Virus record (IMG/VR): IMGVR_UViG_3300032011_000009
Location: 1-59,680 of that record
Direction: 5' to 3' (one strand)
DNA: 59,680 nucleotides
Source: a virus
The translations under genes and the position numbers were made by a program. The notes under the pieces were generated by a model. The model was not told the DNA's origin. It did no database searches and worked only from the letters and a program-made list of their open reading frames with translations. Below, one piece after another: positions 6,427-43,390 of this stretch; positions within the stretch are counted from its first letter, which is position 1, and each line of letters opens with the position of its first letter.

Positions 6427-8016
6427 TTAGTTCGATGTTTCGATTACCGCGTGACTCGTTGTAAATAAAGTGCCTGCCGCCGAAGCTGCATTCTGCAACG
6501 CACAACGGGTGACCTTCACAGGGTCAATCACGCCAGACTCTACCATTTTTGTCAACTTGCCAGCGTGAAAATCCCAGCCTTCTTCAAGCGAAGCGGCTTG
6601 GATCTTATCACAAATCAAGTCGGGGCTTTCCCCTGCGTTCACAGCCATCTGCCTAAGCGGAGCATGCACTGCCGCCTTTATAATCTCAATTCCGCAGCGC
6701 TGCTCTTCGTTGTCTGCATCGATCTTTAGCGCAGCCGCTGCACGAATGAGAGCCACGCCGCCGCCGGGAACGATACCCTCTTGCTGGGCAGACCTTACTG
6801 CTTCTAGAGCATCCTCAATCCGGTGTCGCTTCTCGGTCATCTCAATCTCAGTGGCAGCACCTACGCGAATCACGGCGACACCGCTTGCCAGTCTGGTAAT
6901 GCGCTCTTGCAACTTCTCGCACTCATGAATGGAGTCAGTCACTGATAGCTCTGCCTTAAGATTTTCAATCTGTTCTTCGATCTTGGTGTAGTCACCTTCA
7001 CCGCCAGCAACAGTAGTGCCAGCCTTAGTAATCTCGATAGTCTTACAAGAACCTAAGTGCTCCAAGGTTACCATTTCCGGAGACAAGCCCTTGGATATGG
7101 TAATAAAAGTTGCGCCCACGGATAGCGCCAAGTCTTGCATAATGTTTAGTCGATCCTCGCCATAGCGGGGAGCCTTAACTGCTGCAACCTTGATACCTGA
7201 GTTCATTTCCTGACGGCGGATGGCGTTCATAACCAGTGCAGCCAGTGCTTGACCCTCTACCTCATCTGCAACAACGATCAACGGACGACTGCTACGGTCA
7301 GCAATCTCAAGCACAGGCAACAACTCATCCACTCGCTCAATCTTGGCATCGGTTACCATGATAAGGGGATTTTCATATCGAACTTGTCTGCGGCGTGGGT
7401 CTGTGATGAAAGCTGTAGCCACATACCCAGAAGCAAATCGAAAACCCTCGATTAGATCTAGGCTAGTCTCTAGGCTTCGTGCTTCTTCAACAGTCACCGC
7501 CCCATCTTTGCCAACACTATCAACCGCAGTTGCCACCAGATCACCCAGCTTACGATCATTGTTCGCAGAAATAGTTGCGACATGAGCAATATCTTCCTTG
7601 CTCTTGATCGGCTGAGCCATGTCCTGAAGGTTAATAACTACTGCCTCTACTGCCTTGTCCATGCCGCGCTTCAACTCAATAGGCGACATGCCCGAAGCAA
7701 GGTACCGCTGAGATTGTTCTAGAATCTCTCGCGCAAGAACAGTTGCTGTCGTGGTTCCGTCACCTGCGATGGAGTTCGTCTGCGACGACGCCTGTTTAAT
7801 GATCTGTGCTCCAACATTCTCAAACGGATCGTCCAGTTCTACGTGTTTCGCTACAGTCACACCGTCCTTGGTGATGATGGGAGTTCCGCCGGCAGTTTGC
7901 AGGATTACGTTCCTGCCTCTCGGTCCCAAAGTTGCTGCTGTATAATCAGCCAGCAGGTTGACGCCATTCATAATCTTCTGGCTTAAGCCTGCACCATTGT
8001 TGTACTCTTTAGACAA
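6427..8016 (-). CDS. groEL: GroEL-type chaperonin
   Basis: 529-residue Hsp60 (E. coli 548). ATLGPRGRNVILQ, KDGVTVAKHVEL and AGDGTTTATVLAREIL (ATP-site Asp) are intact. The apical domain region is SGYVATAFITDP, and EKRHRIEDALEAVRSA carries the catalytic Asp, with EGIVPGGGVALIRAAA after it. The C-terminus lacks the GGM repeat tail. The start is TTG 8016, six bases after an AGAGGTG ribosome site. A perfect-consensus sigma-70 promoter lies just upstream (8042-8070). The partner co-chaperonin is probably the GroES-like gene at 22519-22797, not adjacent. Likely assists folding of phage structural proteins, as gp31/GroEL does in T4 infection. Confidence 0.97.
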   Translation of the reverse strand: MSKEYNNGAGLSQKIMNGVNLLADYTAATLGPRGRNVILQTAGGTPIITKDGVTVAKHVELDDPFENVGAQIIKQASSQTNSIAGDGTTTATVLAREILEQSQRYLASGMSPIELKRGMDKAVEAVVINLQDMAQPIKSKEDIAHVATISANNDRKLGDLVATAVDSVGKDGAVTVEEARSLETSLDLIEGFRFASGYVATAFITDPRRRQVRYENPLIMVTDAKIERVDELLPVLEIADRSSRPLIVVADEVEGQALAALVMNAIRRQEMNSGIKVAAVKAPRYGEDRLNIMQDLALSVGATFITISKGLSPEMVTLEHLGSCKTIEITKAGTTVAGGEGDYTKIEEQIENLKAELSVTDSIHECEKLQERITRLASGVAVIRVGAATEIEMTEKRHRIEDALEAVRSAQQEGIVPGGGVALIRAAAALKIDADNEEQRCGIEIIKAAVHAPLRQMAVNAGESPDLICDKIQAASLEEGWDFHAGKLTKMVESGVIDPVKVTRCALQNAASAAGTLFTTSHAVIETSN

Positions 8017-12981: not shown

Positions 12982-13297
12982 TGTGTTCCTCTTCGATCAT
13001 ATCAAATATGTTTTCTATTTCATTTGGGTTGAGAGCAAAATGCTCTTTAAGTTCTTTGCCTTGATCACGCAGCTTCTTAGACTTTGTGTTCTTCAGCTTG
13101 CTGTGTTTACTCTTTGTGGACTTTAATGTTTCCAGAAACTGCATAAACTCTGGCGACTGATTTAGATAAGCATCAATGCAACCACGAAAGAAATCTGACT
13201 GACTGATTCCATCATAATGTAGTCGGATGCGCAAATCTGCATGAACCTTGTCGTTCTCTCTGAAAACCACTCGCTTATTGTAGAGTTCATCTGACAT
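12971..13297 (-). CDS. Small phage protein, possible ribbon-helix-helix type
   Basis: 108 residues. HADLRIRLHYDGISQSDFFRG then CIDAYL has the strand-helix-helix pattern of ribbon-helix-helix or similar small DNA-binding proteins. It is followed by a Lys/Ser-rich linker (KSKHSKLKNTKSKKLRDQGK) and an acidic helix, NEIENIFDMIEEEH. I recall close relatives in marine T4-like phages. It lies between the IMPDH-like gene and the sigma-like gene; a regulatory role is possible. Confidence 0.65.
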   Translation of the reverse strand: MSDELYNKRVVFRENDKVHADLRIRLHYDGISQSDFFRGCIDAYLNQSPEFMQFLETLKSTKSKHSKLKNTKSKKLRDQGKELKEHFALNPNEIENIFDMIEEEHNEL

Positions 13298-14309
13298 TGC
13301 TTAGTCCCAGAATATGGGTGCCCGACTCAGAGATGCCTGCTGCCGTCTGGCGCGTGAACTTGGCGCGGGACTGAAGCTCCGCAAGATTGCGGGCGCCTGA
13401 ATAAGAAAGCCCGCTTCTAATCCCGTTGTCTAAGCCGCGAAGCACATCATCCACTGAGCCTTTCATCGGGATAGTAGCTGACACTCCTTCCAATGACGAC
13501 GCGCTGCCACGCCAATCCTGCTGTGCTTCTTCCGATGCCATGCCTCGATAAGTCTTGTGTGCTACGCCATCGATGTGTACGATCTCGGTACCACATGACT
13601 CTCGGGTGCCAGCCAGCATAGAACCCAGCATCACAGCATCTGCGCCTGCAGCCAGTGCCTTAACAACGTCACCACTGTTGCGGATTCCTCCGTCAGCAAT
13701 GATCGCGGCATCCATGCCAGTCTTGGCGCAGTCCATGATGGTCTGCAGCCCGGGCACACCATGACCAGTTTGAATTCTAGTAGAACAAATCGAGCCACCG
13801 CCAATGTTACATCTGATAGAGTTTGCACCCCATTCGGCTAGCGCGTTAAAGCCCTCAAGTGTAGCCACGTTGCCCGCCATAATATGTACGGTGTCGCCAA
13901 ACGTATCCTTTAGCTGCTTTATAGCTGCCTCCATCAAGGAGTGGTGACCGTGAGCAACATCAATACATAAGATCTCTGCACCCATGGCTACCACTGACTT
14001 TGCTCTGTCATGGAAGTCGCCGGTGACACCGATGGCTGCTGCCTTGGTTCCGTACTTCTGTCGCCTGATAAGTTTAGCTTGTCTGTCAATCGAACAATAG
14101 CGGTGGATAACTCCCAAGCCGCCGGCGATGCCCATGTGAGAAGCCATCAGTGCTTCAGTAACCGTATCCATGGGGGATGAAATGACTGGCAAATCCAGTC
14201 TAAAAGAACCCAGCATGGTGCCAATGTCAATCTCTTTTCTGCTACGAATGTCAGAGTACTGGGGTACCAACAAAACATCGTCATAGCTGAGACTTACCAT
14301 GGTCTTCAT
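13287..14309 (-). CDS. IMP dehydrogenase/GMP reductase family enzyme without CBS domains
   Basis: 340-residue TIM barrel. N-terminus SYDDVLLVPQYSDIRSRKE and SPMDTVTEALMA are family hallmarks. The catalytic loop GGGSICSTRIQTGHGVPGLQ carries the Cys. IIADGGIRNSGDVVKALAAG and AVMLGSMLAGTRES bind phosphate. YRGMASEEAQ and LEGVSATIPMKGSV resemble GMP reductase (YGMSSExA; EGKxVxxPxxG) more than IMPDH, whose flap Arg-Tyr pair is not seen. The CBS pair of typical IMPDH is absent. It adjusts guanine nucleotide pools. Start overlaps the upstream stop (TAATG). Confidence 0.9.
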   Translation of the reverse strand: MKTMVSLSYDDVLLVPQYSDIRSRKEIDIGTMLGSFRLDLPVISSPMDTVTEALMASHMGIAGGLGVIHRYCSIDRQAKLIRRQKYGTKAAAIGVTGDFHDRAKSVVAMGAEILCIDVAHGHHSLMEAAIKQLKDTFGDTVHIMAGNVATLEGFNALAEWGANSIRCNIGGGSICSTRIQTGHGVPGLQTIMDCAKTGMDAAIIADGGIRNSGDVVKALAAGADAVMLGSMLAGTRESCGTEIVHIDGVAHKTYRGMASEEAQQDWRGSASSLEGVSATIPMKGSVDDVLRGLDNGIRSGLSYSGARNLAELQSRAKFTRQTAAGISESGTHILGLSNVR

Positions 14310-14572
14310 TATAGCTCTCCCTTTTCATACTTCTCGACCACTCGCTGTGCTGCCGACCAACAGTCGGGACAGTATAAACGAATGATCTTTTCTTGTTCTC
14401 TAACCACCACGTTCCACGACGACAGCATCTCACGATTCTGCTTGTCGAACTCAGCTTCGCACATCAGGCATGCTTCCGGAAGTTTAGTATAAAACTCCAT
14501 CTTATCCGCAAGATCGGGGCTTCCGTCCTTACGCTCGGCTGCAGCCACCTGTCGGCGTTGCTTGCGGTTCAC
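14309..14572 (-). CDS. Small zinc-ribbon-like phage protein, GTG start
   Basis: 87 residues beginning at GTG 14572, with GGAG five bases upstream; the GTG overlaps the TGA of the methylase gene. A longer in-frame extension to 14608 would lie inside the methylase and lacks support. The N-terminus (M)NRKQRRQVAAAERK is basic; CLMC then CPDC form a four-Cys site typical of small phage zinc proteins. The middle SSWNVVVREQEKIIRLYCPDC is beta-like. Function unknown; possibly nucleic-acid binding. Confidence 0.75.
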   Translation of the reverse strand: MNRKQRRQVAAAERKDGSPDLADKMEFYTKLPEACLMCEAEFDKQNREMLSSWNVVVREQEKIIRLYCPDCWSAAQRVVEKYEKGEL

Positions 14573-15057
14573 GACTTCTCCATAGTGAAGGCGCTTGGAC
14601 TGCCCCAAGCATCACGGTTTGTGTTCTCAAAGACCACGACCGCTGAGGGGAACGGGGCGGAGTTGGTGCTGTCACCAAACTTAAGCCTGCCTTTAACAAA
14701 GTGAATTTCTTTCGCCTTCATCACAAAGTCGTGCCAATACCGTGTATCGGTGCGAGCAGGGATCAGCATGACGACCCGGGTGTGCTGCTTCTGTGATTCG
14801 CTGTATGCCTTTCGGATCCATTGATCGATCCCTCGACCATAAGGAGGGTTAACAAAAACAATATGCCCTCCCCAATCCTTAGTAAGTCCGTCCTCCGCTT
14901 CCGTATAGAAGTTGGCACACTTGGTATTGTGGGTTGTTGCACAGGGGTCAAGATCGAACGGACCAAAGCGCCAGTTCAGTTTGTCAAAGAAGTCCTGTGG
15001 GGTTGCCCACTCGCCTGTCTTGGACGAAAATAGTGTTTGTTGTGTTGCTGCGTTCAT
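14569..15057 (-). CDS. DNA adenine methyltransferase, phage Dam type (PF05869-like)
   Basis: 162 residues. EWATPQDFFDKLNWRFGPFD then LDPCATTHNTKCANFYT and IVFVNPPYGRGIDQWIRKA are the hallmark blocks of phage N6-adenine methylases (NPPY catalytic motif). The SAM site is the FDLDPCA region. RTDTRYWHDFV and KGRLKFGDSTNSAPFPSAVV are also family-typical. A second, D12-class Dam is at 30290-31135. Likely protects phage DNA from restriction. It is in a tightly coupled run with cytochrome c and dUTPase. Confidence 0.9.
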   Translation of the reverse strand: MNAATQQTLFSSKTGEWATPQDFFDKLNWRFGPFDLDPCATTHNTKCANFYTEAEDGLTKDWGGHIVFVNPPYGRGIDQWIRKAYSESQKQHTRVVMLIPARTDTRYWHDFVMKAKEIHFVKGRLKFGDSTNSAPFPSAVVVFENTNRDAWGSPSAFTMEKS

Positions 15058-15386
15058 TTGCTCACCTTAAGAGTTTTTAAATATGCGACCATTGCATCTA
15101 ACTGCGTCCCTGTCCAGCCTGCTCCGATGGGAGGCATCAGGGGCGACTTGCCCACGGCAGTGCCGCCGGCAGCAATCGCTGTCCTTACTTGCTGGTCGGT
15201 TCGCGATGCCCAAAAGCTTGCATCCTGAAAGCTGGCGGGCTTGACAGGGAGAGAAGCAGAGGCAGGTCCGTCGCCTGCTCCGAACTCTCCATGACAGCCG
15301 GCGCACTGAACCTCATAGTCGGAGGCTGAGCCGGCTTGCGCCACTGTAGGCGCGGCGATAAAAAAGATAATGAGCAGCCTATTCAC
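15054..15386 (-). CDS. c-type cytochrome (class I) with signal peptide
   Basis: 110 residues. Residues 1-18 form a Sec signal peptide (MNRLLIIFFIAAPTVAQA, cleavage after AQA). C28-A-G-C31-H32 is the haem attachment motif (CxxCH). Met84 in SPLMPPIG is a good sixth ligand, and DAMVAYLKTL is the usual C-terminal helix. The mature protein of about 92 residues matches small soluble cytochromes c of the c6/cbb3-like group and should reside in the periplasm, where host Ccm machinery would attach haem. Start is GTG 15386 with AGGGAG six bases upstream; it overlaps dUTPase by 8 and the methylase by 4 bases, so it is embedded in the phage operon. Acting as an extra electron carrier is inference. Confidence 0.9.
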   Translation of the reverse strand: MNRLLIIFFIAAPTVAQAGSASDYEVQCAGCHGEFGAGDGPASASLPVKPASFQDASFWASRTDQQVRTAIAAGGTAVGKSPLMPPIGAGWTGTQLDAMVAYLKTLKVSK

Positions 15387-15840
15387 CAGTGCTCCCTAAT
15401 GCGCCATCGCCACGGTCGCTGATTGTGATTGGGTACCAGCCATATAAGTCACTGTCGCCTTGGCGCTCCATAGCGCGGAAGTGTACAACCGGCGTCATAA
15501 CAACTTGGGCAATCTTTGCATGTGAATCAATAACTTGTGCTCTGGTCCCAACGTTGTGAAGGTTAATAAACACTTCTCCGTCATAGCCTGAGTCGATCAC
15601 ACATGCTCCAACAATAAGGCTGCGCTTTGCAGCCATGCCGGAACGGTTCTTCACCTCCAGCATATAGCCATGCGGGATGCCGAACCTGATGCCTGTGGGC
15701 AGGACGGCGCTGGTGCCCGGTTCGATAGTAACAGGCTCGTTGTCAGCGGGGCTGAAATGGACATCCAGCCCCGCATCACTTGGGTTTGCCCGGGAAGGCG
15801 GATGTACGTTAAGATGCGTACGGCACCATTCGATCATCAT
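15379..15840 (-). CDS. dut: dUTP diphosphatase
   Basis: 153 residues with all five dUTPase motifs in order: DAGLDVHF (I), RSGMAAKRSL (II), GACVIDSGYDGEVFINL (III, catalytic Asp), a motif IV-like AKIAQVVMTPV, and the C-terminal RGDGALGSTG (V, the uracil/phosphate clamp). It hydrolyses dUTP to dUMP, preventing uracil incorporation and feeding dTMP synthesis. It overlaps the upstream stop (TAATG) and the downstream cytochrome gene. Confidence 0.95.
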   Translation of the reverse strand: MMIEWCRTHLNVHPPSRANPSDAGLDVHFSPADNEPVTIEPGTSAVLPTGIRFGIPHGYMLEVKNRSGMAAKRSLIVGACVIDSGYDGEVFINLHNVGTRAQVIDSHAKIAQVVMTPVVHFRAMERQGDSDLYGWYPITISDRGDGALGSTGE

Positions 15841-16130
15841 TACTCGCTCTCGATGTCAGGGTTTGCGGCAGTCGAAAGGACGCTGTAAGTTTCATAAAGC
15901 TCGTCCAGATCAACCTCGCCCTTCATCAAACGATACGCCTTAACAGCGACACTCATCTCATCGCGAGTGAGCCAGCCTTGCCGACGATAATCGTTCCGAA
16001 GTTCGCGGCGGTGCTCCTTGTATGGCTCCATCGCATCTTCGATTTCCTTGAGAGAACGGACATACTCTATGATATACCGTTGGCGTCTTGCCTCAGCCTT
16101 AGAAATTACAGGCTTGCTTTCTGTACTCAT
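15840..16130 (-). CDS. Small helical hypothetical protein, first gene after a strong promoter
   Basis: 96 residues, ATG 16130 with AAAGGAG upstream. Helical and charged throughout (RRQRYIIEYVRSLKEIEDAM, EPYKEHRRELRNDYRRQGWL, MSVAVKAYRLMKGEVDLDEL). The pattern EPYKEHRRELxxxYxxxGWL is one I remember from marine phage genomes, unnamed. It heads the unit with dUTPase, cytochrome c and methylase. Function unknown. Confidence 0.75.
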   Translation of the reverse strand: MSTESKPVISKAEARRQRYIIEYVRSLKEIEDAMEPYKEHRRELRNDYRRQGWLTRDEMSVAVKAYRLMKGEVDLDELYETYSVLSTAANPDIESE

Positions 16131-16163: not shown

Positions 16164-16192
16164 ATAATACCAGCTTACTGCGCTGATGTCAA
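16164..16192 (-). promoter_or_regulatory. Sigma-70-type promoter for the dUTPase/cytochrome unit
   Basis: Minus strand TTGACA (16187-16192), 17-base spacer, TATTAT (16164-16169). The next gene starts at 16130, giving a leader of about 25 bases with an AAAGGAG ribosome site. Confidence 0.8.
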
Positions 16193-22805: not shown

Positions 22806-24785
22806 CTAAATGGTGCATGAGTCGTTGGTGCAGAATTTAGTTCCTGCGCCGGCGGTTTCAGTTTTGATCCGAACAATCGGTGTAATCTTCTTGTTCATTT
22901 CTCTATATTGTTTCTCGGTGATCGCTTCATATGGAGCCTGCTTGTATCCGGTTTCCTTATAAGCAAGAAATGACACAGCCTTTAGCCTAGTCTCATACAT
23001 TTCAAGCGCACTCTTTAAACTCTCAGCTTCGTGAGGCTGAAAGGTTACTGTTACGGAAACGGAGTTGTCTGCCCAGAAGTGCTGATATTGTGCTGCAATC
23101 TCAAGCTGCTCCCACATCGACACGTCCTTCTTACTCTTCTCAAAGTATGGCTCTTGCACCGGGAACTCCACAACTGTAGTGTTAGGTGAATAGGCGTCAG
23201 GTTCCATCTTATAGCCTGCCTTCTTCAAAGGTCCAAGCAAGTCTGAAGTGTTGGAGAAGCGAATCCTGCGAATGTAATACTCCGACTCGGGGAAGTGAAT
23301 GCCCGGGGTGCTGCCATTAAGAAGAGAAACCGTGCCGCTTGGCTTGATACTCGTCATGCGTACAGAGCGCGGAATACAAAGCCAGTTTGAATATTCCTCA
23401 TCCAGATCCTGCACACGATCATAAGCCTTGTCACACCATTCATAAATCTCGCGACGACCGTGCTTGGCGAATGCCTGCACAACGCCAGACTGCGACAGTC
23501 CAATGCGGCGATTCTTAAGCATGATTGCGTTCGTCTCTGGCCAATGAGTGTTCACCAGCGTAACTGTCTTGCCGTAGAGATATGCGATCTTTAATGTTTT
23601 TAGATAATCGTCATAGTTCTCATGCTTGGCTGGATAAGTCTCGACCAAGCAACAAAGCTCGGCGTCTTCTAACTGTTGTTCGACACAAGGATTGAATCCC
23701 ATGACATGACGATCATCGTCGCGTGGCTCATCCTTGAAGCGTCCACGGGTACGAGCATTGTTCAGCCAGATGTATCCGGGTTCTCCGTTTTGCTGGCTCT
23801 GTGCTGCATGCCAAGAGTAGTCCATGCCGACCAGAGCTTCAAAAGAGTTGTTGGAGCCCCAGCGATGAGAATAAAGCTTGTCCTGATCATTCTTCATAGA
23901 CAAGTATTCCTTGTCGTCGTGCGCACCCAAAGCGAGAGCGGCTGAGCGGCGAACGTTGCCAGCGACAACACACTTACCAATAAGATTCTCGGTGTCTACG
24001 ATGTCTACAGAAGATACAGTTTCGCCGATGCGAGTATCGTACAGTTCCTTAAGGTTATTATGTAGAAGTAACAGAGGCTCATGCCCTGCAGAGGTTCCAC
24101 CAAAGCCCTTGATCTGTGCGCCCATGGGTCGGATCGCACTATAATCAAATCGTGGAACATCATTGCCAAAGTAGTAGCCATCAAGCAGCATGCGAACAGA
24201 GCGAACCCAGCCTTCACGACTGTCATCAATAACGTGGACATCATCAACCCAGTTTGGTTCTCGGATGACTGCGGTGCCAGCGCCCTTCGTGTCAAAGCCG
24301 ACGCCGATGCCCACCATCAATGCATCCATAATCCAAGCAAAAAGGTAGCCGCCCTTGCTGCTCAAATCCTTTGTAGAGCGGAAAGCACAATTGAACAAGC
24401 CAGCGCCAGTGCGCTCTTGCACGAACTTAGTGCCCATCATCCACAGTCCTCGACCGGGGGGCGACCATTTCAGAGTAAAGAGGCGGTCATAGGCATCCTT
24501 TGCGGTGCGCTGTGCCTTTGCATCATTCCACTCAAGCCCTAGACGAGCAACGTGTTGCTTTTGAATGTCAAACATTCCTTCAATGACACGACGGCAGGTC
24601 TGATGCCATTCCTCCGTGCCCACTGCAGCAGGGTCATGCTCCTCTAGCCTTCGCGAGTACGTCCGCTTGAAGGTCACATATCCTAGTGGACCCCATGGTA
24701 CCTGCCGATCACGATAGTTATCAAGAAATGACTCTGATAATCTAAACCGGCGAACCGAAGGGTCGCGTTCCTGTTGTTCATACAT
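22806..24785 (-). CDS. nrdJ: Class II (B12-dependent) ribonucleoside-triphosphate reductase
   Basis: 659 residues. KWSPPGRGLWMMGTKFVQER, FNCAFRST (redox Cys), GYLFAWIMDALMVGIGVGFD, GFGGTSAG, VVAGNVRRSAALALG, FNPCVEQQLEDAELCCLVET (thiyl-radical Cys and second redox Cys), SIKPSGTVSLLNGSTPGIHF and the C-terminal CTNDSC redox pair match the monomeric adenosylcobalamin-dependent reductases (Lactobacillus RTPR type). It makes dNTPs from NTPs independently of oxygen, but needs host cobalamin. It overlaps the helicase gene by 8 bases. Confidence 0.93.
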   Translation of the reverse strand: MYEQQERDPSVRRFRLSESFLDNYRDRQVPWGPLGYVTFKRTYSRRLEEHDPAAVGTEEWHQTCRRVIEGMFDIQKQHVARLGLEWNDAKAQRTAKDAYDRLFTLKWSPPGRGLWMMGTKFVQERTGAGLFNCAFRSTKDLSSKGGYLFAWIMDALMVGIGVGFDTKGAGTAVIREPNWVDDVHVIDDSREGWVRSVRMLLDGYYFGNDVPRFDYSAIRPMGAQIKGFGGTSAGHEPLLLLHNNLKELYDTRIGETVSSVDIVDTENLIGKCVVAGNVRRSAALALGAHDDKEYLSMKNDQDKLYSHRWGSNNSFEALVGMDYSWHAAQSQQNGEPGYIWLNNARTRGRFKDEPRDDDRHVMGFNPCVEQQLEDAELCCLVETYPAKHENYDDYLKTLKIAYLYGKTVTLVNTHWPETNAIMLKNRRIGLSQSGVVQAFAKHGRREIYEWCDKAYDRVQDLDEEYSNWLCIPRSVRMTSIKPSGTVSLLNGSTPGIHFPESEYYIRRIRFSNTSDLLGPLKKAGYKMEPDAYSPNTTVVEFPVQEPYFEKSKKDVSMWEQLEIAAQYQHFWADNSVSVTVTFQPHEAESLKSALEMYETRLKAVSFLAYKETGYKQAPYEAITEKQYREMNKKITPIVRIKTETAGAGTKFCTNDSCTI

Positions 24786-33990: not shown

Positions 33991-36366
33991 TCAACTATAT
34001 AAAAAGTTTTTCCAGTTCTTAACGATAGACTCGTTAGTAGTTTGCACAGGAGGGGTATCCTCAACCCTGTCATCGGTTGCTGGGATGTTCTCACCAACTA
34101 CCTGATTGAACACTGCCTGAATCGCGGCATCGAGCACTTCTTCATCTTCCCACTCCTCGATTGTCCACCGCATAGACTTGACTTGGGCTTCGCTGCTGTT
34201 GTCATTACAGTAGAATGTCAGAACAAGTCTAATGTTCTCCTCGGTTGTCGTGCGAATCTCTTCAGTGTACACTCTGAAGTTTGGATATTGACGGTCATCG
34301 CCTGATACCTGTGTGCCTGCCCATGCTTTCTCCACCAGCGCTTTGCGCAGTGGAATAGTAAAATCCCTGCTCTCTAAGACCGTGCGTGCGTCTTGGATGC
34401 TCATACCTTCTGGAATAGCAGGATATGCTGTGTGCGAGCCTTCGATGCCAGAATACGTCATGTGGTCTTCTTCGTCAGCGGTCATGTCCCACTCGTAGTA
34501 ATCAACAGATCCGTTATCGATATCGCTGCCCCACTCATTGATAGCGCCGCCTTCCATAAAGCCGTCACGCTTAGCCATGCGCTCGATCTCGCCTTTGACG
34601 CCATCGTACATATCATCGATGCGGTTCACCTCAACGCAGTAGTCTTCAAATGTATCAGGATCATAAACTATTCCATCGTCTGTGATGCCTTCGTTTTCCA
34701 TCAAGATAGTTAGCCTGATGGTGTCGTTAGAATATCGCATCAAGCGAGTACCCCAGCCATCGCCTGCCCAGTTCCACTCAAAGTCTTGCAACTCTGATAT
34801 CCAGTACCCGACAGCTTTACCGTCCTGTGGCAACGAATCCCATTCTTCTGTCTCCCAATCGATATTCATTTCGGCGGTGGCGCCAACATAGAAGCCGGCG
34901 TCATAATCTTCTGTGATTTCGGCAGTGACATGGCACGCTTGATAGCGGTTGTTCCACTCGTCGGAGATGCGGTCGCACTCTGCTTGCGCGGTTCTCATCT
35001 GAGCTTCAAGGAACTCCATATCTGGTAGCGACCTTTCGGTGTCCGTGTTCTGTCCGATAAAGGGAAAATCGATGCCGGTCAAATCTTGCACAAGACTTTT
35101 GATATTATTATCCTCGTAGGAGCCGCCGTACTTGACCAAATAGCCATCTTCAGGAATCGCTGCGATAGCTTCCGACTGCCCTTCTTTAGCCCAATTGAAA
35201 ACCCTGTCCCGAAAGCCGGGAATCTTCACCCCATAAACGCGGGATTCGGGAACGGCGATTTCAGGACCATTCTCATACTTGGCTGCAGATTGGTCAGCAT
35301 ATACACGGACCTGACGCAGACGGACGCGGGATACGGGAAGCATCTCCATAGATAGCCCGATGTGACTGCCACGGTTTTCATCAGCGAAGATTTCATCGTC
35401 GTTATTAATCTCATCTTCGGCGATTTCAAGACTATCTGTTTCTGTGGCTTTCATCAGTTCTTCTGTTTCAACCACATATGCAATAGCGCCATGACCGTGA
35501 GCCTCGGCTGCCGCACATTTATAATAAGACGTATCTCCTTGGCGGGAAGGTGGCGAATGGCATGACGTAATCCGATTGAAGTCCGACATACGGAGAATGT
35601 CAATAGGATCCCGTGAAATGATGATGCTGTATTTGTTTTCGGTTAGATTGCCGATGTTCTTCTTAATGTAATCAGCATTCTGCTGCCAGTATACTTGATT
35701 CTTCTTGGCGTCTTCCGAACTGTTAAGCTTTCGGATGCCGTCGCCAAGATACATTTCAAGCTGATCCGCTAGCTGTTGGTATCTCTCCACTTCCTGCTCA
35801 TCAAGGGCTGCAGCAATCATCTTTCCTGTAAGCATACCGGGCTTATCAATTCTTCCGTAACCGCCTAGAGTATAGCCAATACTATCTAAATGATCGAACA
35901 CCTTTTGAGAGAGCGCTTCTCTCTTTGAAGCCAGTTCGTAAATCTTTGCCCAAAGCTTGCCGATCTTCATCTGGACTTTGCGCTTTTTGGGCTCTGGTGG
36001 CTGACCGCCGGCGAGTTGAGCAGCCATCGCTTCGATGCTGCCGTCTTTCAGCGTTCTTTCGCTCGAAACCAAGCCTTTTTCCCAATTTACATCATATCCC
36101 ATCTCACGGAACATATCGACAAACTTTCCTAGATCGCTGGCGGTGTCCATTGTTGGGAAATCGAGAACAAGGCGCATTTTGCCTTTAAATAGGCTATTGA
36201 ACGCCAGATCCTCCGGTCCAAGGTCGTGTACCGCATCGACGATGTATTGGTGCTCGTCTTCGTCCAGTTCTCGGAGCAACTTTCGCTCTGTATACATTTT
36301 TGGCTTTTTAGCCGGATCGCGGGCTTCAGTCAAAAAGCTGCGCCACGCATATTCGTCATATTTCAT
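33991..36366 (-). CDS. Large conserved protein, paralogue of the 1-1920 gene
   Basis: 791 residues, ATG 36366 with AGAGG upstream. The leader MKYDEYAWRSFLTEA closely resembles the T4 capsid-targeting sequence (MKTYQEFIAEA). The core IIISRDPIDILRMSDFNRIT then SCHSPPSRQGDTSYYKCAAAEA and HGHGAIAYVV aligns with the same block in the 1-1920 protein. Later DDEIFADENRG, PESRVYGVKIPGFRDR and LVKYGGSYEDN also match. The C-terminal third is acidic and Tyr/Trp-rich. No catalytic family recognised; the Cys/His core may be catalytic or metal-binding. A packaged virion protein is the best guess. Confidence 0.85.
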   Translation of the reverse strand: MKYDEYAWRSFLTEARDPAKKPKMYTERKLLRELDEDEHQYIVDAVHDLGPEDLAFNSLFKGKMRLVLDFPTMDTASDLGKFVDMFREMGYDVNWEKGLVSSERTLKDGSIEAMAAQLAGGQPPEPKKRKVQMKIGKLWAKIYELASKREALSQKVFDHLDSIGYTLGGYGRIDKPGMLTGKMIAAALDEQEVERYQQLADQLEMYLGDGIRKLNSSEDAKKNQVYWQQNADYIKKNIGNLTENKYSIIISRDPIDILRMSDFNRITSCHSPPSRQGDTSYYKCAAAEAHGHGAIAYVVETEELMKATETDSLEIAEDEINNDDEIFADENRGSHIGLSMEMLPVSRVRLRQVRVYADQSAAKYENGPEIAVPESRVYGVKIPGFRDRVFNWAKEGQSEAIAAIPEDGYLVKYGGSYEDNNIKSLVQDLTGIDFPFIGQNTDTERSLPDMEFLEAQMRTAQAECDRISDEWNNRYQACHVTAEITEDYDAGFYVGATAEMNIDWETEEWDSLPQDGKAVGYWISELQDFEWNWAGDGWGTRLMRYSNDTIRLTILMENEGITDDGIVYDPDTFEDYCVEVNRIDDMYDGVKGEIERMAKRDGFMEGGAINEWGSDIDNGSVDYYEWDMTADEEDHMTYSGIEGSHTAYPAIPEGMSIQDARTVLESRDFTIPLRKALVEKAWAGTQVSGDDRQYPNFRVYTEEIRTTTEENIRLVLTFYCNDNSSEAQVKSMRWTIEEWEDEEVLDAAIQAVFNQVVGENIPATDDRVEDTPPVQTTNESIVKNWKNFLYS

Positions 36367-36380
36367 GAATTTGCCTCTGC

Positions 36381-36392
36381 CTATAAATAGTT
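36381..36392 (-). promoter_or_regulatory. AACTATTTATA element, copy 3
   Basis: Minus strand TTAACTATTTATAGG, about 15 bases before ATG 36366. The 84-base gap 36367-36450 holds this and no supportable gene. Confidence 0.5.
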
Positions 36393-36450
36393 AACTAAAC
36401 CGCAAATCTGAAAATTATAGCGGCGAAAAAAATTTGGAATAACGACCTTT

Positions 36451-37683
36451 TCAAGCGCATTTAGTTTTGAGCACTAAGTCTACCATGTTCCCGAAGTCGC
36501 GACCAACTTTAGTGTTAACCTTGAAGTGGCCAAGCTCGGTCTGGCCAAAAAGGTTAATAAGTTCTGGAATCATTCCTCGTTCGGAGGCGGCGAGGTCGAT
36601 AATGATTGAGTCGTGAAGTGTGAAAGCGATCTGGCTTCTGCAGTCTCTAAGGCGCTCATTGATTTCAATAAGCCTTCGGAGGGTAACGTCCACACAACTA
36701 CTTTGAATAATATAAGAAAGAGAATGATGGTGATCGCTAGGTATGGTCCGTCCGAATCGTGTCCGGACATGTGTGCCGGTCCAATGCGAGCCAATAATTC
36801 TCTCTCTTTGGTACGTTTCTTCCAGTAGTTTTTCCACAGTCCCATCATTATTAGTTAGTGTGCCAGAAACGTTTTTCCTACCGTATAGCCATGCAAAGAT
36901 TCTGCGCTTGGCTTCCTGACGGTCTACGTCGCCAAAGATATTCTTAATATTCCACTCATGAATGTCCTCTGTCGGCTGGTCCTGTCCAGCAAGCGACAGA
37001 GCCACACGAAGTTCAGCAGCATTGTAATCTAGCTCTAAAAACCAGTCATTATTCGGCTTCAACACAGAACGATACTGCCTATCAAGTGTCAGGATAGGGA
37101 AACTGCCCGGGCTGTTGGTCAGGCGACCGGTCTTTGTACCCCATATGTTATAGCGACAATACGGCGTATACTTCTGGAGGTTCTTCACAAACTTTCTCGT
37201 AGCAGTCTTGTGATAGATTGGGCGGATACCCTCTGTGCTGATGCTCAACTCGTTATACCGAATGTCGTCGAGTGCAATGTTCAACTGCTTTATAAAGTCA
37301 TAGTTGTCCGGTTTCTCATATGTGTCGAACACATGCTGCGTAATCCTGTTCTTAACCTCGCAGTAATCCAGCAAGAACTGGCGAGGCACCAGATCGAAAA
37401 AGCAGTTCTCGTCCAGCGACACTTTGGCAAAGCCGAACGAACGAAAATACGCACGAAGCTTGTCCCTCACAGCCTCCCACTGTGTTCGCAGGTTGTCCGG
37501 ACACACTTGGTCCAAGGACATGCCGGCACAATAAAACTTAGCGTACTCCACCTCAGTGTCTCGCAAAAACGTACTATAGTCCCATGTATGCGTCAGTCCT
37601 GCGGGAATCGTATCATGGATCAGTTCTCCGTCAAGGTACACGCCTACGCAGTCCTTCTTGTCGTCTAATGTTTGGAATAGCAA
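36451..37683 (-). CDS. Family A (Pol I-type) DNA polymerase domain without exonucleases
   Basis: 410 residues, TTG 37683 (weak ribosome site, start uncertain). IWGTKTGRLTNSPGSFPI and LELDYNAAELRVALSLAG (motif A, catalytic Asp) are followed by motif B EAKRRIFAWLYGRKNVSGT (Arg/Lys/Tyr O-helix) and motif C AFTLHDSIIIDLA (HDE of Pol I/T7 is HDS here). The 3'-5' exonuclease and 5' nuclease domains are absent; T7 polymerase is 704 and Pol I 928 residues. With a separate 5'-3' exonuclease and a DnaE in the same phage, it may fill gaps as half of a split Pol I. It could also be a diverged, specialised polymerase. Confidence 0.88.
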   Translation of the reverse strand: MLFQTLDDKKDCVGVYLDGELIHDTIPAGLTHTWDYSTFLRDTEVEYAKFYCAGMSLDQVCPDNLRTQWEAVRDKLRAYFRSFGFAKVSLDENCFFDLVPRQFLLDYCEVKNRITQHVFDTYEKPDNYDFIKQLNIALDDIRYNELSISTEGIRPIYHKTATRKFVKNLQKYTPYCRYNIWGTKTGRLTNSPGSFPILTLDRQYRSVLKPNNDWFLELDYNAAELRVALSLAGQDQPTEDIHEWNIKNIFGDVDRQEAKRRIFAWLYGRKNVSGTLTNNDGTVEKLLEETYQRERIIGSHWTGTHVRTRFGRTIPSDHHHSLSYIIQSSCVDVTLRRLIEINERLRDCRSQIAFTLHDSIIIDLAASERGMIPELINLFGQTELGHFKVNTKVGRDFGNMVDLVLKTKCA

Positions 37684-37697
37684 GTGCTTGCCTGTGT

Positions 37698-39539
37698 TTA
37701 GATGTATAGCATGAATTGTCCGCGACCAGCATTGGTTTGTTCGCGGTTTACATATCGGTTAAACGTCTTTGCTTTGTTTTGCACTGTTCTGTACGGCGGG
37801 TTACCGCCCGGTGCGGGGAGCCTGTCTGTCTTATCATTAATATAATCTAATGCCTTGCTGCCGTCAAGGTTTTTTTGAATATCGCTCAAATCTTTGACAT
37901 TCTGCTCAAAGATTCTCTGCGTCCAGTCAACCGACGCCTCTCTTGCGCGTACAAACATGTAGAGTTTGGCTGGGAAGTCTGTACCGAAGATGTTAGAGAA
38001 AACGTCGTAAGAAGAAGGCTTCTTGTTGGCGTTGGCGTTCTTGCGGTTGATCGTTTTACCCGCTAGCATAGAATGGTTTTCTCTTTTGATGGTCGCGTAG
38101 TAGCTGGTGTCTGCTGAGGCTGCTCCATCGAATGCGATGGTTCTACGATAGCTCATGGTTGTCACCACCTCTGAGTTTGCGCCGGCTGTGGCGGAGGAGG
38201 GGCGGTGGATAGCAACGGCTTGCGAAGGGAATGACCCAGCAAACGAGTTCCACATGCTAAGAAAGTAGTTCATCAAGACCTTTAAATCCGTAGAGTCTGC
38301 TCTATAATAGCATGTCCGGAACATGATGTCAAGGTTTTTAGTTTGATATTTTTTGACCAGTGCATCGTATGCTTGCGCTAACTTATATGCCTTGTCTCTC
38401 TGTCCGCGTCTAGTCTGGGTGCCCGTTGCTTTCTTCTGCCACTCATCGCGGCGGCGGACTAGCTCCGGAATGTTTGTGCCCTTGCCATTGACATCTTTGC
38501 CTTCCACAGCCCAATCGCGGATGTACCGGCGCATGGGAGTTGACATCACATCAGCAACCAGTCTCCAAGGACAGTTGAAATCAACCATGAAGCCAAACTT
38601 CTGAGCCATGGCAACGAACACCTCAAAGTTCGGGTCGTTAAGATAGTCTTCCTTCTTCTTCACGTCATCATTTGGATCTTCTTTATACAGATCAATCTGC
38701 CAACCGCTGATTGCTCGATTACACTCGCCGCTCATGATATAGCCAGAGCGCGTAAACTGCACCATGGGAGCAGCAATATCTATGAAGTATAACATATACT
38801 GCATAAAGTCCTTAAAGGTTAATATCTTCTGTTGGCGACCCTCCGCGAGTGTCCACTGCTGGAAGCCCTCGAAGATCCTCTCCATGTTGGCTTGATACTG
38901 TGGGTGTATGCTGGTCCAGCAAGAGGATACATTTAGGAGCCCTTGTTGTGGGCGATACTTGCCGACATCAGCAACCATCGGTCCTGCACCCTGACCTCTT
39001 TGGTTGGTAGCCCTAACATTCATGGCAAAGAATCGTGCCCATTCCTTTTGAAAATCTCTATATGCATGCGCCACAAAAACCGGTGCCATAATAGAGGCAT
39101 CCCCTTTGTTGAGTGACGTAAGAAATGCCTCTGAGATGTAAATCGAGTTTTGATTGATGTCTACCTTCCCATACATCCCCTTGTCATACCAGAAGTCGAT
39201 CATTCCCAGCGACCAGCCGCCAACAGAAGCGTATCTAGGGGCATGCGCTTCCCAGTGTATGCGACGAGCAAACAAAGTAGACGGCTTGTCCTTGGCTGAA
39301 GCGCCCCACCATTTCGCATTTTCGCCTCGGGCGCGTGCCATCTCTATTGAAATGGCGGGAACATGAATGAAGTTTTGTAGCGAAGGTTCACGACCGCTGC
39401 GGTATGGGATCCGCTTGATGCCCTTCCGCTTGCGCGGGTCTTTCGCCTCATAAAGACCCGGAGGATCAACAATAAACTTTACGGCACCAGTGTTTAGGCG
39501 GTTCTTAAGTGCTTGTGTTTTTTCATCTGAGTCTGACAT
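37698..39539 (-). CDS. Virion structural protein, unassigned (613 aa)
   Basis: 613 residues. Aromatic-rich, no signal peptide or membrane helix. Blocks: VGGWSLGMIDFWYDKGMYGK, PVFVAHAYRDFQKEWARFF, MQYMLYFIDIAAPMVQFTRS and NIFGTDFPAKLYMFVRA. It sits at the end of the tail/baseplate cluster (39569 upstream), so a baseplate or tail protein is likely. I recall homologues in marine T4-like phages as unnamed structural proteins. It contains an internal promoter at 38304 reading into the Pol I-type gene. Confidence 0.75.
   Translation of the reverse strand: MSDSDEKTQALKNRLNTGAVKFIVDPPGLYEAKDPRKRKGIKRIPYRSGREPSLQNFIHVPAISIEMARARGENAKWWGASAKDKPSTLFARRIHWEAHAPRYASVGGWSLGMIDFWYDKGMYGKVDINQNSIYISEAFLTSLNKGDASIMAPVFVAHAYRDFQKEWARFFAMNVRATNQRGQGAGPMVADVGKYRPQQGLLNVSSCWTSIHPQYQANMERIFEGFQQWTLAEGRQQKILTFKDFMQYMLYFIDIAAPMVQFTRSGYIMSGECNRAISGWQIDLYKEDPNDDVKKKEDYLNDPNFEVFVAMAQKFGFMVDFNCPWRLVADVMSTPMRRYIRDWAVEGKDVNGKGTNIPELVRRRDEWQKKATGTQTRRGQRDKAYKLAQAYDALVKKYQTKNLDIMFRTCYYRADSTDLKVLMNYFLSMWNSFAGSFPSQAVAIHRPSSATAGANSEVVTTMSYRRTIAFDGAASADTSYYATIKRENHSMLAGKTINRKNANANKKPSSYDVFSNIFGTDFPAKLYMFVRAREASVDWTQRIFEQNVKDLSDIQKNLDGSKALDYINDKTDRLPAPGGNPPYRTVQNKAKTFNRYVNREQTNAGRGQFMLYI
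38304..38332 (-). promoter_or_regulatory. Sigma-70-type promoter with palindromic spacer, upstream of the Pol I-type gene
   Basis: Minus strand TTGACA (38327-38332), 17-base spacer, TATTAT (38304-38309). The spacer holds a near-palindrome (CATGT-CCGGA-ACATG type) that could bind a regulator. It lies within the 613-residue gene. Confidence 0.6.
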
Positions 39540-39568
39540 GTCTACTACCCCCCTTTATAAGTACTGGT

Positions 39569-42190
39569 TTACCAGATTTTCCACCATGGATCTCCGGCAC
39601 CATTATCGTCACCTTGGCACGGATCTTCGGCGTCCATATCTTCAACGCCACTGATATCGCTCAGTTCCTCGTCCAGTCCCAAGGCACCCTCGATGGCATC
39701 GCCCACATCTTCCCAGAAACTATCCTGAGAGTCCTCAACCACTTGTCCCACGTCCACTTCGGCGCAGTTCGGCTCTTCGGTAGGTGCCGCTCCTGCTCCG
39801 CTGCTAACCCAAGTGCATTCCACCGTAGTATCATACGCTCCACCGCGTTTTATTGCTGAATTTACTTTAATAACTTGAAAATACCCACCCAAGCCTAAGC
39901 GGAACGCGATAGAGTTTCGCGTAGAAGGGTTGCCCACGCCGTACGGAGGATTCACATAGACGTATTGTCCCGGGAAATGAATGTTGTTCCCAACCATCTT
40001 TAGTTTGGCATTGTAGAGTTCTCGTAAGTTGGAAAGTGCGCCTTCTTCTGTTTGTCGTGCTTCTTTGAGTCCCTGAATGTCTGATTTATTAAAGTTGATG
40101 GTCTTGATTATTCCGCTGTCTTGACCGATAGTATAATGATTGATTCCTCGTTTTGCATCGGCGGCTTCATCGCCTGTCAATCCTCCCGGGTCACCTGACT
40201 GCATATAGTAAAGCGCATATGTGAACCCCGGATCTTCCGGGTTAACATCTTCCCCGATTTTCCCCATCATCCCTTCCGGCGTTGGTCGTCTGCCGTGAGG
40301 AGAGCATATATCTTCGTCTGCTTTAACCGTAAAGACAGACTGTGAGACATCACCTGTCTGGTTTGGGGCGTTGGGGAAACACTTGGGCTGCAAAGCCGGC
40401 TTGATAAGACACTGCATAACATCCATGAGGAACCTTCTAACTGGATAGTTATCCTTTTCCGGCTCGATAACCTTTTCATTCCAGAACTTTAGGAACAGCG
40501 TGTAAGAAATGGGGATATCGCACAACGCGATCCGCCTAATCTCCTTAGTTCTAGGATCTGTGTACTGCGCTGGACCTAAAATGATAGCCATCTTTTCAAG
40601 TTCGGCAGCTTTGCTATCCGGATCGAAAGCCACACATGCTTGCTCAACAATGTCGCCTAGGAAGCAAAAATAAACATCGTCATCGTCTACATCTGATGCG
40701 TCTGCATCTTCAGCTTCTTTCTCCGGGTTGCTAAACCAGCCTTGATCACCAATTGTGATCGTTGCAACACCGCCCCACTGATCATCGTTAGAAAGTGTGG
40801 GGCGTTTGCCTCCCTCGTTCGCTTGCCACTCTTCAAGGAAGCCGTTGTCCAAATCCAAGTGTCGGATCTTGCCACTAAGAGCATCTGTAAAACTAGCATA
40901 TGCGTCAGACCTGTTGGTGTCATTTAGTTCTGCCAATATTTCCCTTAACTCTTCGGCTTCTTCGGCGGCATCCTCAGCCTCTTCGTCAAGGTCTTCAATA
41001 TCACCCTCTGATGCCTCTTGTTCGCTGGCGCATGCTTGAGCATCTTCAACATCTTCTATGTGCTCCTCCAGTGCCTCTAGTTCCGCTTCGACATCCTCTA
41101 CATTACGATCATCAACGCCGAATCCCAAGAATCCGCCGCTGACCGTAGCATCTCCGCTGCCGCCGCCGGGGAAAAGAATGTCTGCCGCCTTTGACTCCAA
41201 AGCGGCTTCCATTGCGCCGACGTATTCCACTGTTACATCACACGATCCGTCTTCTTTGATCTTAACCTCATGTTGAATAAGGTTAAGGTACATATCCAGA
41301 TTCATGTTCTTCAATATCTTAACTAGTGCGGCATCCTGCAGGTGGGTGCGGACGCCTTCATCAATTGCCCAGCCAACGCTAGCTAAAACCCTATAGTATC
41401 TTGGATCATATTCTTCGGCGCCGGTCTTACCCCTGTTTCCGCCTTCTGGGTGTAAGATTAGCTCTAAAAAGCTAGGGTTATCGCCCGGTGTATAATTATT
41501 TCCTGCTGCTGCTATCGAATCGAAGTCTCCCACCAAATCTTTTACGGACTGAAAGTGCATTGTCATCTTTACACCAATAACTTTTTCGCCCTCTGCCGGG
41601 TTGGTGCCGGCAAACTCCCACTTGAACTCTTTAATACCAGCGCCGCCAGAGCGACCGCCGGCGTCAGTTGTTAGGTCTGAAAGTCGTGACTCATCCATGA
41701 AGCCTTTGAATTTGAACTCTCTGCGGACTGACTCGCCGCCATCAGCCGCTGGAGTGACCCTCCAAAGCCTCACTCGCGGCTGCAATACAGCTTTTTGCCA
41801 TGGCTTAATCCGGGTGAAGGGTGCCATTGAGTCCCGCTTTAAGACCGCTGACAGCACGTCATGAACTGTCGCGCCTCCCGTGCCGGAACTCGCAGCAAGA
41901 GCATGGAAGTTCTTATAATGACATTGTTCATTTAGTGGCGAGAGGATGTCTGCGTAATCCATCAGGAAGCACTGGTGGTCAAAGGTTAATTTATCTTGTT
42001 CAGACTCTTCGCCTTCAGATGTAGCGGCGTCAGGATCTGTTGAGGCGGCAGGATCTTCGCCCGCAGTAGTACCATCGGTAGCCGCAGTGTCATCTGCAGC
42101 ACCGGCATCAGAGGGATCTTCCCCATCAGCCCCGCCAGATTCAGTGGCAGCTTCAGTGGGGTCTGTTTCTGGGACTTCGGGATCTGCCAT
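39569..42190 (-). CDS. Large acidic tail/baseplate structural protein
   Basis: 873 residues. N-terminal 80 residues are acidic low complexity (DPEVPETDPTEAATESGGAD). Folded blocks: NYTPGDNPSFLELILHPEGG, YDPRYYRVLASVGWAIDEGV, LVKILKNMNLDMYLNLIQHE then VKIKEDGSCDVTVEYVGAME, and a C-terminal GLGGYFQVIKVNSAIKRGGA. A long coiled acidic insertion (residues about 350-430) is present. Position between LysM/gp53-like and structural genes suggests baseplate hub or wedge. Not assigned to a T4 gene. Confidence 0.7.
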   Translation of the reverse strand: MADPEVPETDPTEAATESGGADGEDPSDAGAADDTAATDGTTAGEDPAASTDPDAATSEGEESEQDKLTFDHQCFLMDYADILSPLNEQCHYKNFHALAASSGTGGATVHDVLSAVLKRDSMAPFTRIKPWQKAVLQPRVRLWRVTPAADGGESVRREFKFKGFMDESRLSDLTTDAGGRSGGAGIKEFKWEFAGTNPAEGEKVIGVKMTMHFQSVKDLVGDFDSIAAAGNNYTPGDNPSFLELILHPEGGNRGKTGAEEYDPRYYRVLASVGWAIDEGVRTHLQDAALVKILKNMNLDMYLNLIQHEVKIKEDGSCDVTVEYVGAMEAALESKAADILFPGGGSGDATVSGGFLGFGVDDRNVEDVEAELEALEEHIEDVEDAQACASEQEASEGDIEDLDEEAEDAAEEAEELREILAELNDTNRSDAYASFTDALSGKIRHLDLDNGFLEEWQANEGGKRPTLSNDDQWGGVATITIGDQGWFSNPEKEAEDADASDVDDDDVYFCFLGDIVEQACVAFDPDSKAAELEKMAIILGPAQYTDPRTKEIRRIALCDIPISYTLFLKFWNEKVIEPEKDNYPVRRFLMDVMQCLIKPALQPKCFPNAPNQTGDVSQSVFTVKADEDICSPHGRRPTPEGMMGKIGEDVNPEDPGFTYALYYMQSGDPGGLTGDEAADAKRGINHYTIGQDSGIIKTINFNKSDIQGLKEARQTEEGALSNLRELYNAKLKMVGNNIHFPGQYVYVNPPYGVGNPSTRNSIAFRLGLGGYFQVIKVNSAIKRGGAYDTTVECTWVSSGAGAAPTEEPNCAEVDVGQVVEDSQDSFWEDVGDAIEGALGLDEELSDISGVEDMDAEDPCQGDDNGAGDPWWKIW

Positions 42191-42196
42191 ACAACA

Positions 42197-42535
42197 TTAA
42201 CCTTTCAAGTATTTTAGCACAGAAGTCAAAGGAAGTGGAATATAAATTGTGTCTCCCATTTTGATGTGAGACTCTGTTGGCTTTTTGTTGAACCACGCAA
42301 TCACCCACCACAATTCTGACTCTCCGTAATATTTGTGGGCAAGCTTCCAATACTGATCTCCTGTTTTCCACAAATGAGACACGCGATCAATCGTCGCCGA
42401 GATTTGTTCCGGAGAAGGATACGACATGTAAGGCGTGTTGTATTGGCGGATGCGGCGGAGCCCACGCCTCTCCAATATCTCTTGGTAGAAGCGACTAGAA
42501 TTTGTAATCACGCGCCGGCTGTCATATCTTGCCAT
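42197..42535 (-). CDS. LysM-domain baseplate wedge protein (gp53-like)
   Basis: 112 residues. N-terminus MARYDSRRVITNSSRFYQEI then LERRGLRRIRQYNT is typical of short baseplate proteins. LWKTGDQYWKLAHKYYGESE then LWWVIAWFNKKPTE and MGDTIYIPLPLTSVLKYL is a LysM-like domain, as in T4 gp53 and relatives. Probable baseplate assembly component. Confidence 0.75.
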   Translation of the reverse strand: MARYDSRRVITNSSRFYQEILERRGLRRIRQYNTPYMSYPSPEQISATIDRVSHLWKTGDQYWKLAHKYYGESELWWVIAWFNKKPTESHIKMGDTIYIPLPLTSVLKYLKG

Positions 42536-42555
42536 ATCTTATTGAACTCCTTTTG

Positions 42556-43326
42556 TCATCCGCCGACTGGCTCTAACGGCAAGTCGATGCCGGGGGTGCC
42601 AGTGGTGCCCGTATCGTCGGTGGGAGCCTCTGTCGCTCCACGGGCGGTACCTTTCGCATTGTAGGGGAAACTGTTCGATGAGCCGGCATCGCCAAAACCC
42701 ATTTGAGCGTCATCAGTGGCACCCGCTGTAGACCAACCCATCATGTGGGTGTGTAGCACTGTGAACTCAGCCGACAAAGTAAGCCTTAAGGGATAAAATA
42801 CTCCCGGGGTTTCGTCAACAATGCCCGACTCAAAATCAGGCTCAAAAGTAAAGCCACCAATGTAACCAATCAAGCCGGAAGTCTTTGCGTTAGAGCCCGC
42901 CGAATCTGGTCCAGCCTCAACGTTATGAGCAAAGTTTCCGAACTTAAACTTAAACACGGGAGATGAAGCGATAGTCTGGGAGTCTCCTCCTCCGCCTTTC
43001 GAGTATGACGGGTATAGCATAGACATCAGCGTTTCACATTTCTTCATGTTTAGTTCTGCCTCTTCAATGCTTGCTGAAACAACATCCCACTCGACACTAA
43101 TCTGTCGGGCGGTTCCTTGAAACGCAGAAATGGGATCCATACGACCATACACAGATTCACTGTTCCATTCTGACGTATATTGATCAGAGAAGGAGTTAAT
43201 CATAGCCTTAAACACGACTGACTTCTGGCTAGGAACGTGAAAAAATTCCAGCACCATAAGCTTGTCTATAGCAAGCTTACCTGTGCCATCTATGTCGCGT
43301 CCAAAGCGTCCACTATATATTGACAT
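42556..43326 (-). CDS. Baseplate or tail tube-end protein (unassigned)
   Basis: 256 residues, GGAGG upstream of ATG 43326. VVFKAMINSFSDQYTSEWNS then ESVYGRMDPISAFQGTARQI and SVEWDVVSASIEEAELNMKK then CETLMSMLYPSY is a block that recurs in T4-like tail/baseplate genes I remember. The N-terminal YSGRFGRDIDGTGKLAIDKL is also typical. Gly/Thr-rich C-terminus. Likely a tube-capping or baseplate protein adjoining the tape measure. Confidence 0.7.
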   Translation of the reverse strand: MSIYSGRFGRDIDGTGKLAIDKLMVLEFFHVPSQKSVVFKAMINSFSDQYTSEWNSESVYGRMDPISAFQGTARQISVEWDVVSASIEEAELNMKKCETLMSMLYPSYSKGGGGDSQTIASSPVFKFKFGNFAHNVEAGPDSAGSNAKTSGLIGYIGGFTFEPDFESGIVDETPGVFYPLRLTLSAEFTVLHTHMMGWSTAGATDDAQMGFGDAGSSNSFPYNAKGTARGATEAPTDDTGTTGTPGIDLPLEPVGG

Positions 43327-43390
43327 ATTTAGAAACCTCCTCGTTCTTTATCTTCTCTATAACTAGTCCATTCTGTAAGAAGTTTCGCTA

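Follow-up and report, generated by a model that had tools for sequence, protein, structure and literature searches.

Bacteria pass electrons in respiration with small haem proteins of the class I cytochrome c kind, and the auxiliary genes known so far from viruses of non-photosynthetic bacteria mostly encode enzymes. Among described systems, a small electron carrier encoded by phages is represented by the plastocyanin (petE) of cyanophages (PMC3037559). Auxiliary genes for SoxD, SoxC and SoxYZ have been reported on viral contigs, where SoxD is a sulfane dehydrogenase subunit of which two viral copies are without one or both haem motifs (PMC8190135). Denitrification genes (nirK and norB) have been found on a marine myovirus, and the authors of that survey of oxygen-poor water observed no electron carriers such as cytochromes in their phages (PMC8115048). 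In addition, reads of cbb3 oxidase were found in a virome (PMC3474794).

The entire stretch of DNA analysed here, hereafter the window, is a 59.7-kb virus contig (59,680 nucleotides) that carries a gene for a predicted cytochrome c of 110 residues (MNRLLIIFFIAAPTVAQAGSASDYEVQCAGCHGEFGAGDGPASASLPVKPASFQDASFWASRTDQQVRTAIAAGGTAVGKSPLMPPIGAGWTGTQLDAMVAYLKTLKVSK, with the GTG start read as M). Like petE (PMC3037559), this gene would encode a small soluble carrier, is borne by phages, is sporadic in its distribution and resides in a mobile gene region. However, plastocyanin is a copper protein used in photosynthesis by cyanobacteria, whereas the window protein is predicted to carry haem, and no signs of a photosynthetic host were seen among the genes examined in the window's phage group. 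Viral SoxD (PMC8190135) is likewise a cytochrome c family protein with a viral gene and a periplasmic redox role, but the window cytochrome appears to be a free-standing carrier, retains an intact haem motif and is present in several phages. Viral nirK and norB (PMC8115048) are also respiratory auxiliary genes, although they encode terminal enzymes. No free-standing phage cytochrome c was found in the open-access literature. The statement in the preliminary description that very few c-type cytochromes are known from phages agrees with a tblastn search of 50,697 phage records, which returned no such cytochrome, and with a search of PHROGs, which gave no match.

A class I cytochrome c gene in a phage genome

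The window encodes a contractile tail sheath, a tail tube, a baseplate hub, a DnaB-like helicase and an endolysin, together with a UvsX-like recombinase, DNA polymerase III alpha, a class II ribonucleotide reductase and GroEL. By this gene content, the contig is the genome of an uncultured myovirus-like phage, and the cytochrome gene is therefore phage-borne. In IMG/VR, the window polymerase is matched by at least 592 relatives, and related contigs reach 185-195 kb; its relatives in deposited phages are all distant (best approximately 31% identity). Among 754 bacterial genomes (369 from Gammaproteobacteria and 385 from Alphaproteobacteria), the phage polymerase gave a single distant match (43%, in a 1.5-Mb alphaproteobacterial assembly), which was rejected as too weak to name a host.

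Several other features of the genome deserve mention. The GroEL (Cpn60, 529 amino acids; 6427-8016, minus strand) is encoded near the endolysin and is conserved in the group. The ribonucleotide reductase (22806-24785, minus strand) is of the B12-dependent class II, a type that works without oxygen. Several large proteins of up to 1282 amino acids encoded within 33991-47239 are without a PHROG match, and those at 33991-36366, 37698-39539 and 39569-42190 are without a Pfam match as well. No tRNAs are present in the window, and a few occur in relatives of this phage.

The cytochrome gene and its surroundings include the following features, all located on the minus strand:

13287-14309, minus strand: IMP dehydrogenase/GMP reductase-like gene (Pfam IMPDH, 6e-98)
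14569..15057, minus strand: Dam-type DNA adenine methylase, downstream flank of the slot (Pfam Dam, 4.1e-35)
15054..15057, minus strand: ATGA, 4 nt shared by the two genes, with the stop of the cytochrome gene lying within the Dam start
15054..15386, minus strand: cytochrome c gene, GTG start, TGA stop, 110 amino acids
15135..15137, minus strand: Met84, candidate sixth haem-iron ligand
15291..15305, minus strand: CAGCH haem-attachment motif in the sequence, codons 28-32
15333..15386, minus strand: putative Sec-type signal peptide MNRLLIIFFIAAPTVAQA, codons 1-18, read from the translation
15379..15386, minus strand: GTGAATAG, 8 nt shared by dut and the cytochrome gene, with the stop of dut lying within the cytochrome start
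15379..15840, minus strand: dUTPase (dut), upstream flank of the slot (Pfam dUTPase, 2.6e-17)
15392..15396, minus strand: GGGAG ribosome-binding site, 5 nt before the cytochrome GTG
15840..16130, minus strand: orf15840, first gene of the operon, no function assigned; precedes dut in most relatives
16164..16192, minus strand: putative sigma-70-like promoter TTGACA-N17-TATTAT (consensus scan, 11/12 matches)

The preliminary description had placed the gene correctly at 15054-15386 and left its strand unstated; the plus-strand frame across this interval is closed by stops, and the cytochrome frame is open on the minus strand. Every sequence detail given there (the signal, CAGCH, Met84, the GTG start, the ribosome-binding site and the overlaps of 8 and 4 nt) was recovered. 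The signal-like N-terminus comprises 18 residues with AxA at its end, and this putative cleavage site is kept in all phage copies. The CxxCH motif, whose conservation in relatives had been raised as a test, is invariant in the bacterial relatives aligned and in the phage cytochromes (4/4 copies), and Met84 is invariant among phage copies and nearly so once bacterial relatives are included. In loci L001 and L003, GGGAG occurs at the same place before the cytochrome start.

Profile searches yielded matches to Pfam Cytochrom_C (PF00034; E=2.2e-8, 35.7 bits against a cut-off of 21.3) and Cytochrome_CBB3 (PF13442; 31.3 bits against a cut-off of 27). A chance occurrence of the haem motif was rejected given these matches above cut-off and the fact that only 2 of the 191 stop-to-stop frames of at least 80 codons in the window contain CxxCH; in the second such frame, no other cytochrome features were seen by eye. 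Because the NCBIfam matches (cytochrome 579 and CcoP, both c-type cytochromes) were all below threshold, the protein is best described as a class I cytochrome c without a named subtype. SoxD was among the subtypes rejected on this basis, as there was no NCBIfam match to its model, and soxC or other sox genes were not found among the neighbours scanned with Pfam.

An AlphaFold2 model built from a 13-row alignment has a pLDDT of 87.1 overall and approximately 94 across residues 21-100, with a low-confidence N-terminus and a first helix that begins at residue 20. When this model was compared with the PDB by using Foldseek, the best 50 matches listed were without exception cytochromes c or proteins that include such a domain. 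Small soluble cytochromes c-552 of anammox bacteria and the alternative complex III monohaem subunit headed this set. TM values reach 0.68 (query) and 0.82 (target), and the match set is consistent, with a best E value that is modest (7e-3) and a probability of 1.00. A PDB profile search returned the same families, including cbb3 CcoP and c552, and the predicted viral structures of BFVD held no meaningful match to the model. Thus, the structure prediction and family search proposed in the preliminary description both point to cytochrome c, and its class I assignment agrees with profile and predicted fold. As judged from sequence and model, the encoded protein of 110 residues is a true class I cytochrome c with a single predicted haem. 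It resembles c-552-type carriers of this class (PF00034/PF13442) in its single N-terminal CxxCH, distal Met, putative export signal and predicted all-helical mature domain of approximately 90 residues, and differs from them in being phage-encoded, in sharing at most approximately 46% identity with the cellular copies found and in matching no named NCBIfam equivalog above cut-off.

The dUTPase-Dam junction as a cargo slot

The gene order that recurs among relatives is polymerase, in some cases a protease, orf15840, dut, a variable position, Dam, orf14309 and the IMPDH/GMP reductase-like gene, the last of which is conserved across the phage group. Among the 45 distinct loci that include both flanks, the position between dut and Dam is closed in 18, holds other sequence in 23 and holds the cytochrome in four. 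These counts establish the dUTPase-Dam junction as a cargo slot. Because the contigs are partial, absences provide only lower bounds on presence. Moreover, viral contigs were searched by short peptide patterns that divergent copies escape, as evident by the L246 cytochrome, which was overlooked by two such searches and recovered by profile.

The cytochrome directly follows dut in four distinct phages, namely that of the window and three others: L067/L068 (91% polymerase identity), L064 (86%) and L236/L246 (75%), the last of which has one more small gene between cytochrome and methylase. Its residence in a phage operon, as previously described, is thus borne out by synteny with dut and Dam, and its presence in related genomes, on which the earlier account had been staked, extends to these three further phages. 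The proposed order dut-cytochrome-Dam holds insofar as the gene follows dut in all four, but it is not fixed, since the slot is empty or filled by other genes elsewhere. The nearest relatives (L065 and L093, 95% polymerase identity) carry an XhoI-like gene in the slot and no cytochrome, and in L069 (90%) the slot is closed. This sporadic distribution, with absence even from L065 and L093, indicates that the cytochrome is dispensable or niche-specific.

The other recognised cargo consists mostly of DNA methylases and nucleases: an XhoI-like endonuclease, N6/N4 and D12 methylases and GIY-YIG proteins, in addition to a GHKL ATPase and an Asp/Arg hydroxylase-like protein. The frequency of DNA-modification genes in the slot would also allow a role for the cytochrome outside metabolism. 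At the dUTPase end, a junction of the RTGARTAR type is found in 4/4 cytochrome phages, 13/18 closed loci and 5/23 loci with other cargo. This sequence comprises the last dUTPase codons and stop, and the start codon of the following gene (Dam, cytochrome or other) lies inside it. From this arrangement, we infer that new cargo enters the slot through exchange at the RTGARTAR junction, and the 8-base start/stop overlap would translationally couple an incoming gene to dUTPase.

Selection and origin of the phage cytochromes

Comparisons between phage cytochrome copies yield dN/dS values of 0.11-0.14 overall and 0.07-0.12 for the mature part, which are values of a gene under strong purifying selection. 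The four phage sequences form one clade in the tree (support 98/96), as would be expected from one common origin. In the pairs formed by the window with L067 and with L064, four-fold silent sites differ by 28-33% in the cytochrome gene and by 48-67% in dut and dam (Fisher p 0.0004-0.04). Given this lower silent-site divergence relative to its flanks, the cytochrome gene seems to have moved between related phages after the flanks diverged, with codon constraint as an alternative cause of the low divergence.

Cellular relatives, drawn from samples of Gammaproteobacteria, Alphaproteobacteria and Acidobacteriota, are approximately 31-46% identical. Genes in their neighbourhood were assigned by reading the ORFs rather than by family search. 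On this reading, several of the relatives in Gammaproteobacteria have a multicopper-oxidase-like gene close by, along with a di-haem cytochrome and another enzyme of cupredoxin type, and the surroundings of several in Alphaproteobacteria include a di-haem cytochrome as well as membrane oxidase-like or haem-binding subunits.

Two further small cytochromes c were encountered on phage contigs. A distantly related protein of 95 amino acids with a putative signal (MKFLMVFMVLSQPAYA), CASCH and MPAW is encoded in the same phage group (L147:1480-1767, minus strand; also L149, L150 and L151). Its gene occupies another part of the genome, where a secreted trypsin-like protease is encoded on one side and a LamG-domain protein on the other. 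The other (L252:4992-5297, plus strand; 101 amino acids, CAGCH, MMPA) is carried by an IMG/VR contig of 223 kb on which the polymerase of the window's phage group is absent. A lipoprotein-like ORF with a thioredoxin-type CGVC, noted by eye on the opposite strand approximately 1.2 kb away, is a possible redox partner of the L252 cytochrome. A weak PF00034 match in L148 was rejected, as it runs through stops. The L147/L150 and L252 genes suggest that phage cytochromes c are rare and not unique.

Proposed role of the phage cytochrome

The best reading of the profile, fold, synteny, selection and tree data is that the cytochrome is a phage auxiliary gene, as had been proposed at the outset. As far as sequence comparison can tell, the gene lies in a viral genome, has a cellular metabolic homologue and is maintained by selection. 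We consider it reasonably probable that the product is an exported periplasmic electron carrier that supports host respiration and is expressed in early to middle infection together with dUTPase. The putative sigma-70-like promoter precedes the operon of orf15840, dut, cytochrome and Dam, and a promoter-like site is found at the same place in 7/8 close relatives inspected, the window included. Given a nucleotide-metabolism operon and a conserved promoter of this type, the cytochrome is probably made early or midway rather than late, and the initial assignment of its action to late infection is not upheld.

In the mechanism that we favour, host RNA polymerase would transcribe the operon in early to mid-infection, while host export and haem attachment still work. 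The Sec machinery of the host would export the protein, and its Ccm machinery, if a Ccm-positive host is assumed, would attach haem. The periplasmic cytochrome could then add carrier capacity between an assumed host donor, for which a bc1-type complex and a periplasmic dehydrogenase are candidates, and an assumed acceptor in the host, which could be an oxidase or else a reductase for nitrogen or sulfur, such that respiration and ATP supply may keep pace with phage DNA synthesis. By analogy, this role would be akin to that of cyanophage plastocyanin, in a respiring host instead.

An exported cytochrome might alternatively divert electrons or shift redox balance, for example towards an alternative acceptor or for relief of oxidative stress. 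Since bacterial relatives lie beside periplasmic multicopper enzymes, the partner could be a specific reductase, and cyanophage petE and PTOX were proposed to prevent electron back-up (PMC3037559). However, no partner enzyme gene was recognised among the window proteins scanned and a lone carrier cannot set the direction of electron flow, which makes this explanation rather unlikely. A role in host interference, by a superinfection block or by competition for Ccm, haem or an envelope electron-transfer complex, would suit the company that the gene keeps, because the recognised slot genes (XhoI-like nuclease, methylases, GIY-YIG, GHKL ATPase) are mostly of a phage-host conflict type. We hold this to be quite improbable, as complete haem ligation and conservation of the whole fold, both predicted from sequence, argue for a working carrier.

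It is also conceivable that the gene is a passenger, captured by a hypervariable slot and kept mainly through frequent exchange, with little benefit to the phage. Slot content does differ even between phages whose polymerases are 95% identical, and the low silent-site divergence of the cytochrome (0.28-0.33 versus 0.48-0.67 in the flanks) suggests recent spread. Nevertheless, the mature protein evolves at a dN/dS of 0.07-0.12, the haem ligands and signal are intact in all copies, and two further phage lineages have unrelated cytochromes with predicted export. The evidence at hand thus already weighs against a passenger, which we consider improbable. Finally, the record is an uncultured contig, which raises the matter of misassembly or host contamination of the metagenome. 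The same cytochrome and dUTPase junction recurs on four distinct phage contigs with several sample numbers, and there is no close cellular homologue (best approximately 46%). Artefacts of this kind were rejected because the cytochrome recurs in the same slot, and their likelihood is vanishingly small.

Returning to the respiratory carrier, we judge the chances to be about even that an uncultured myovirus lineage carries an exchangeable respiratory-carrier cassette and that this is the first well-supported phage cytochrome c of the soluble-carrier kind. The dut-Dam slot provides a defined site for finding further cargo. The dependence of the cytochrome on the haem-attachment machinery of the host would tie infection to envelope biogenesis. 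If the proposal is true, viruses can themselves provide the mobile link in the respiratory chain of bacteria other than cyanobacteria. Should the protein acquire its haem and carry electrons, phages would alter this link of respiration and hence the turnover of oxygen, nitrogen or sulfur during infection.
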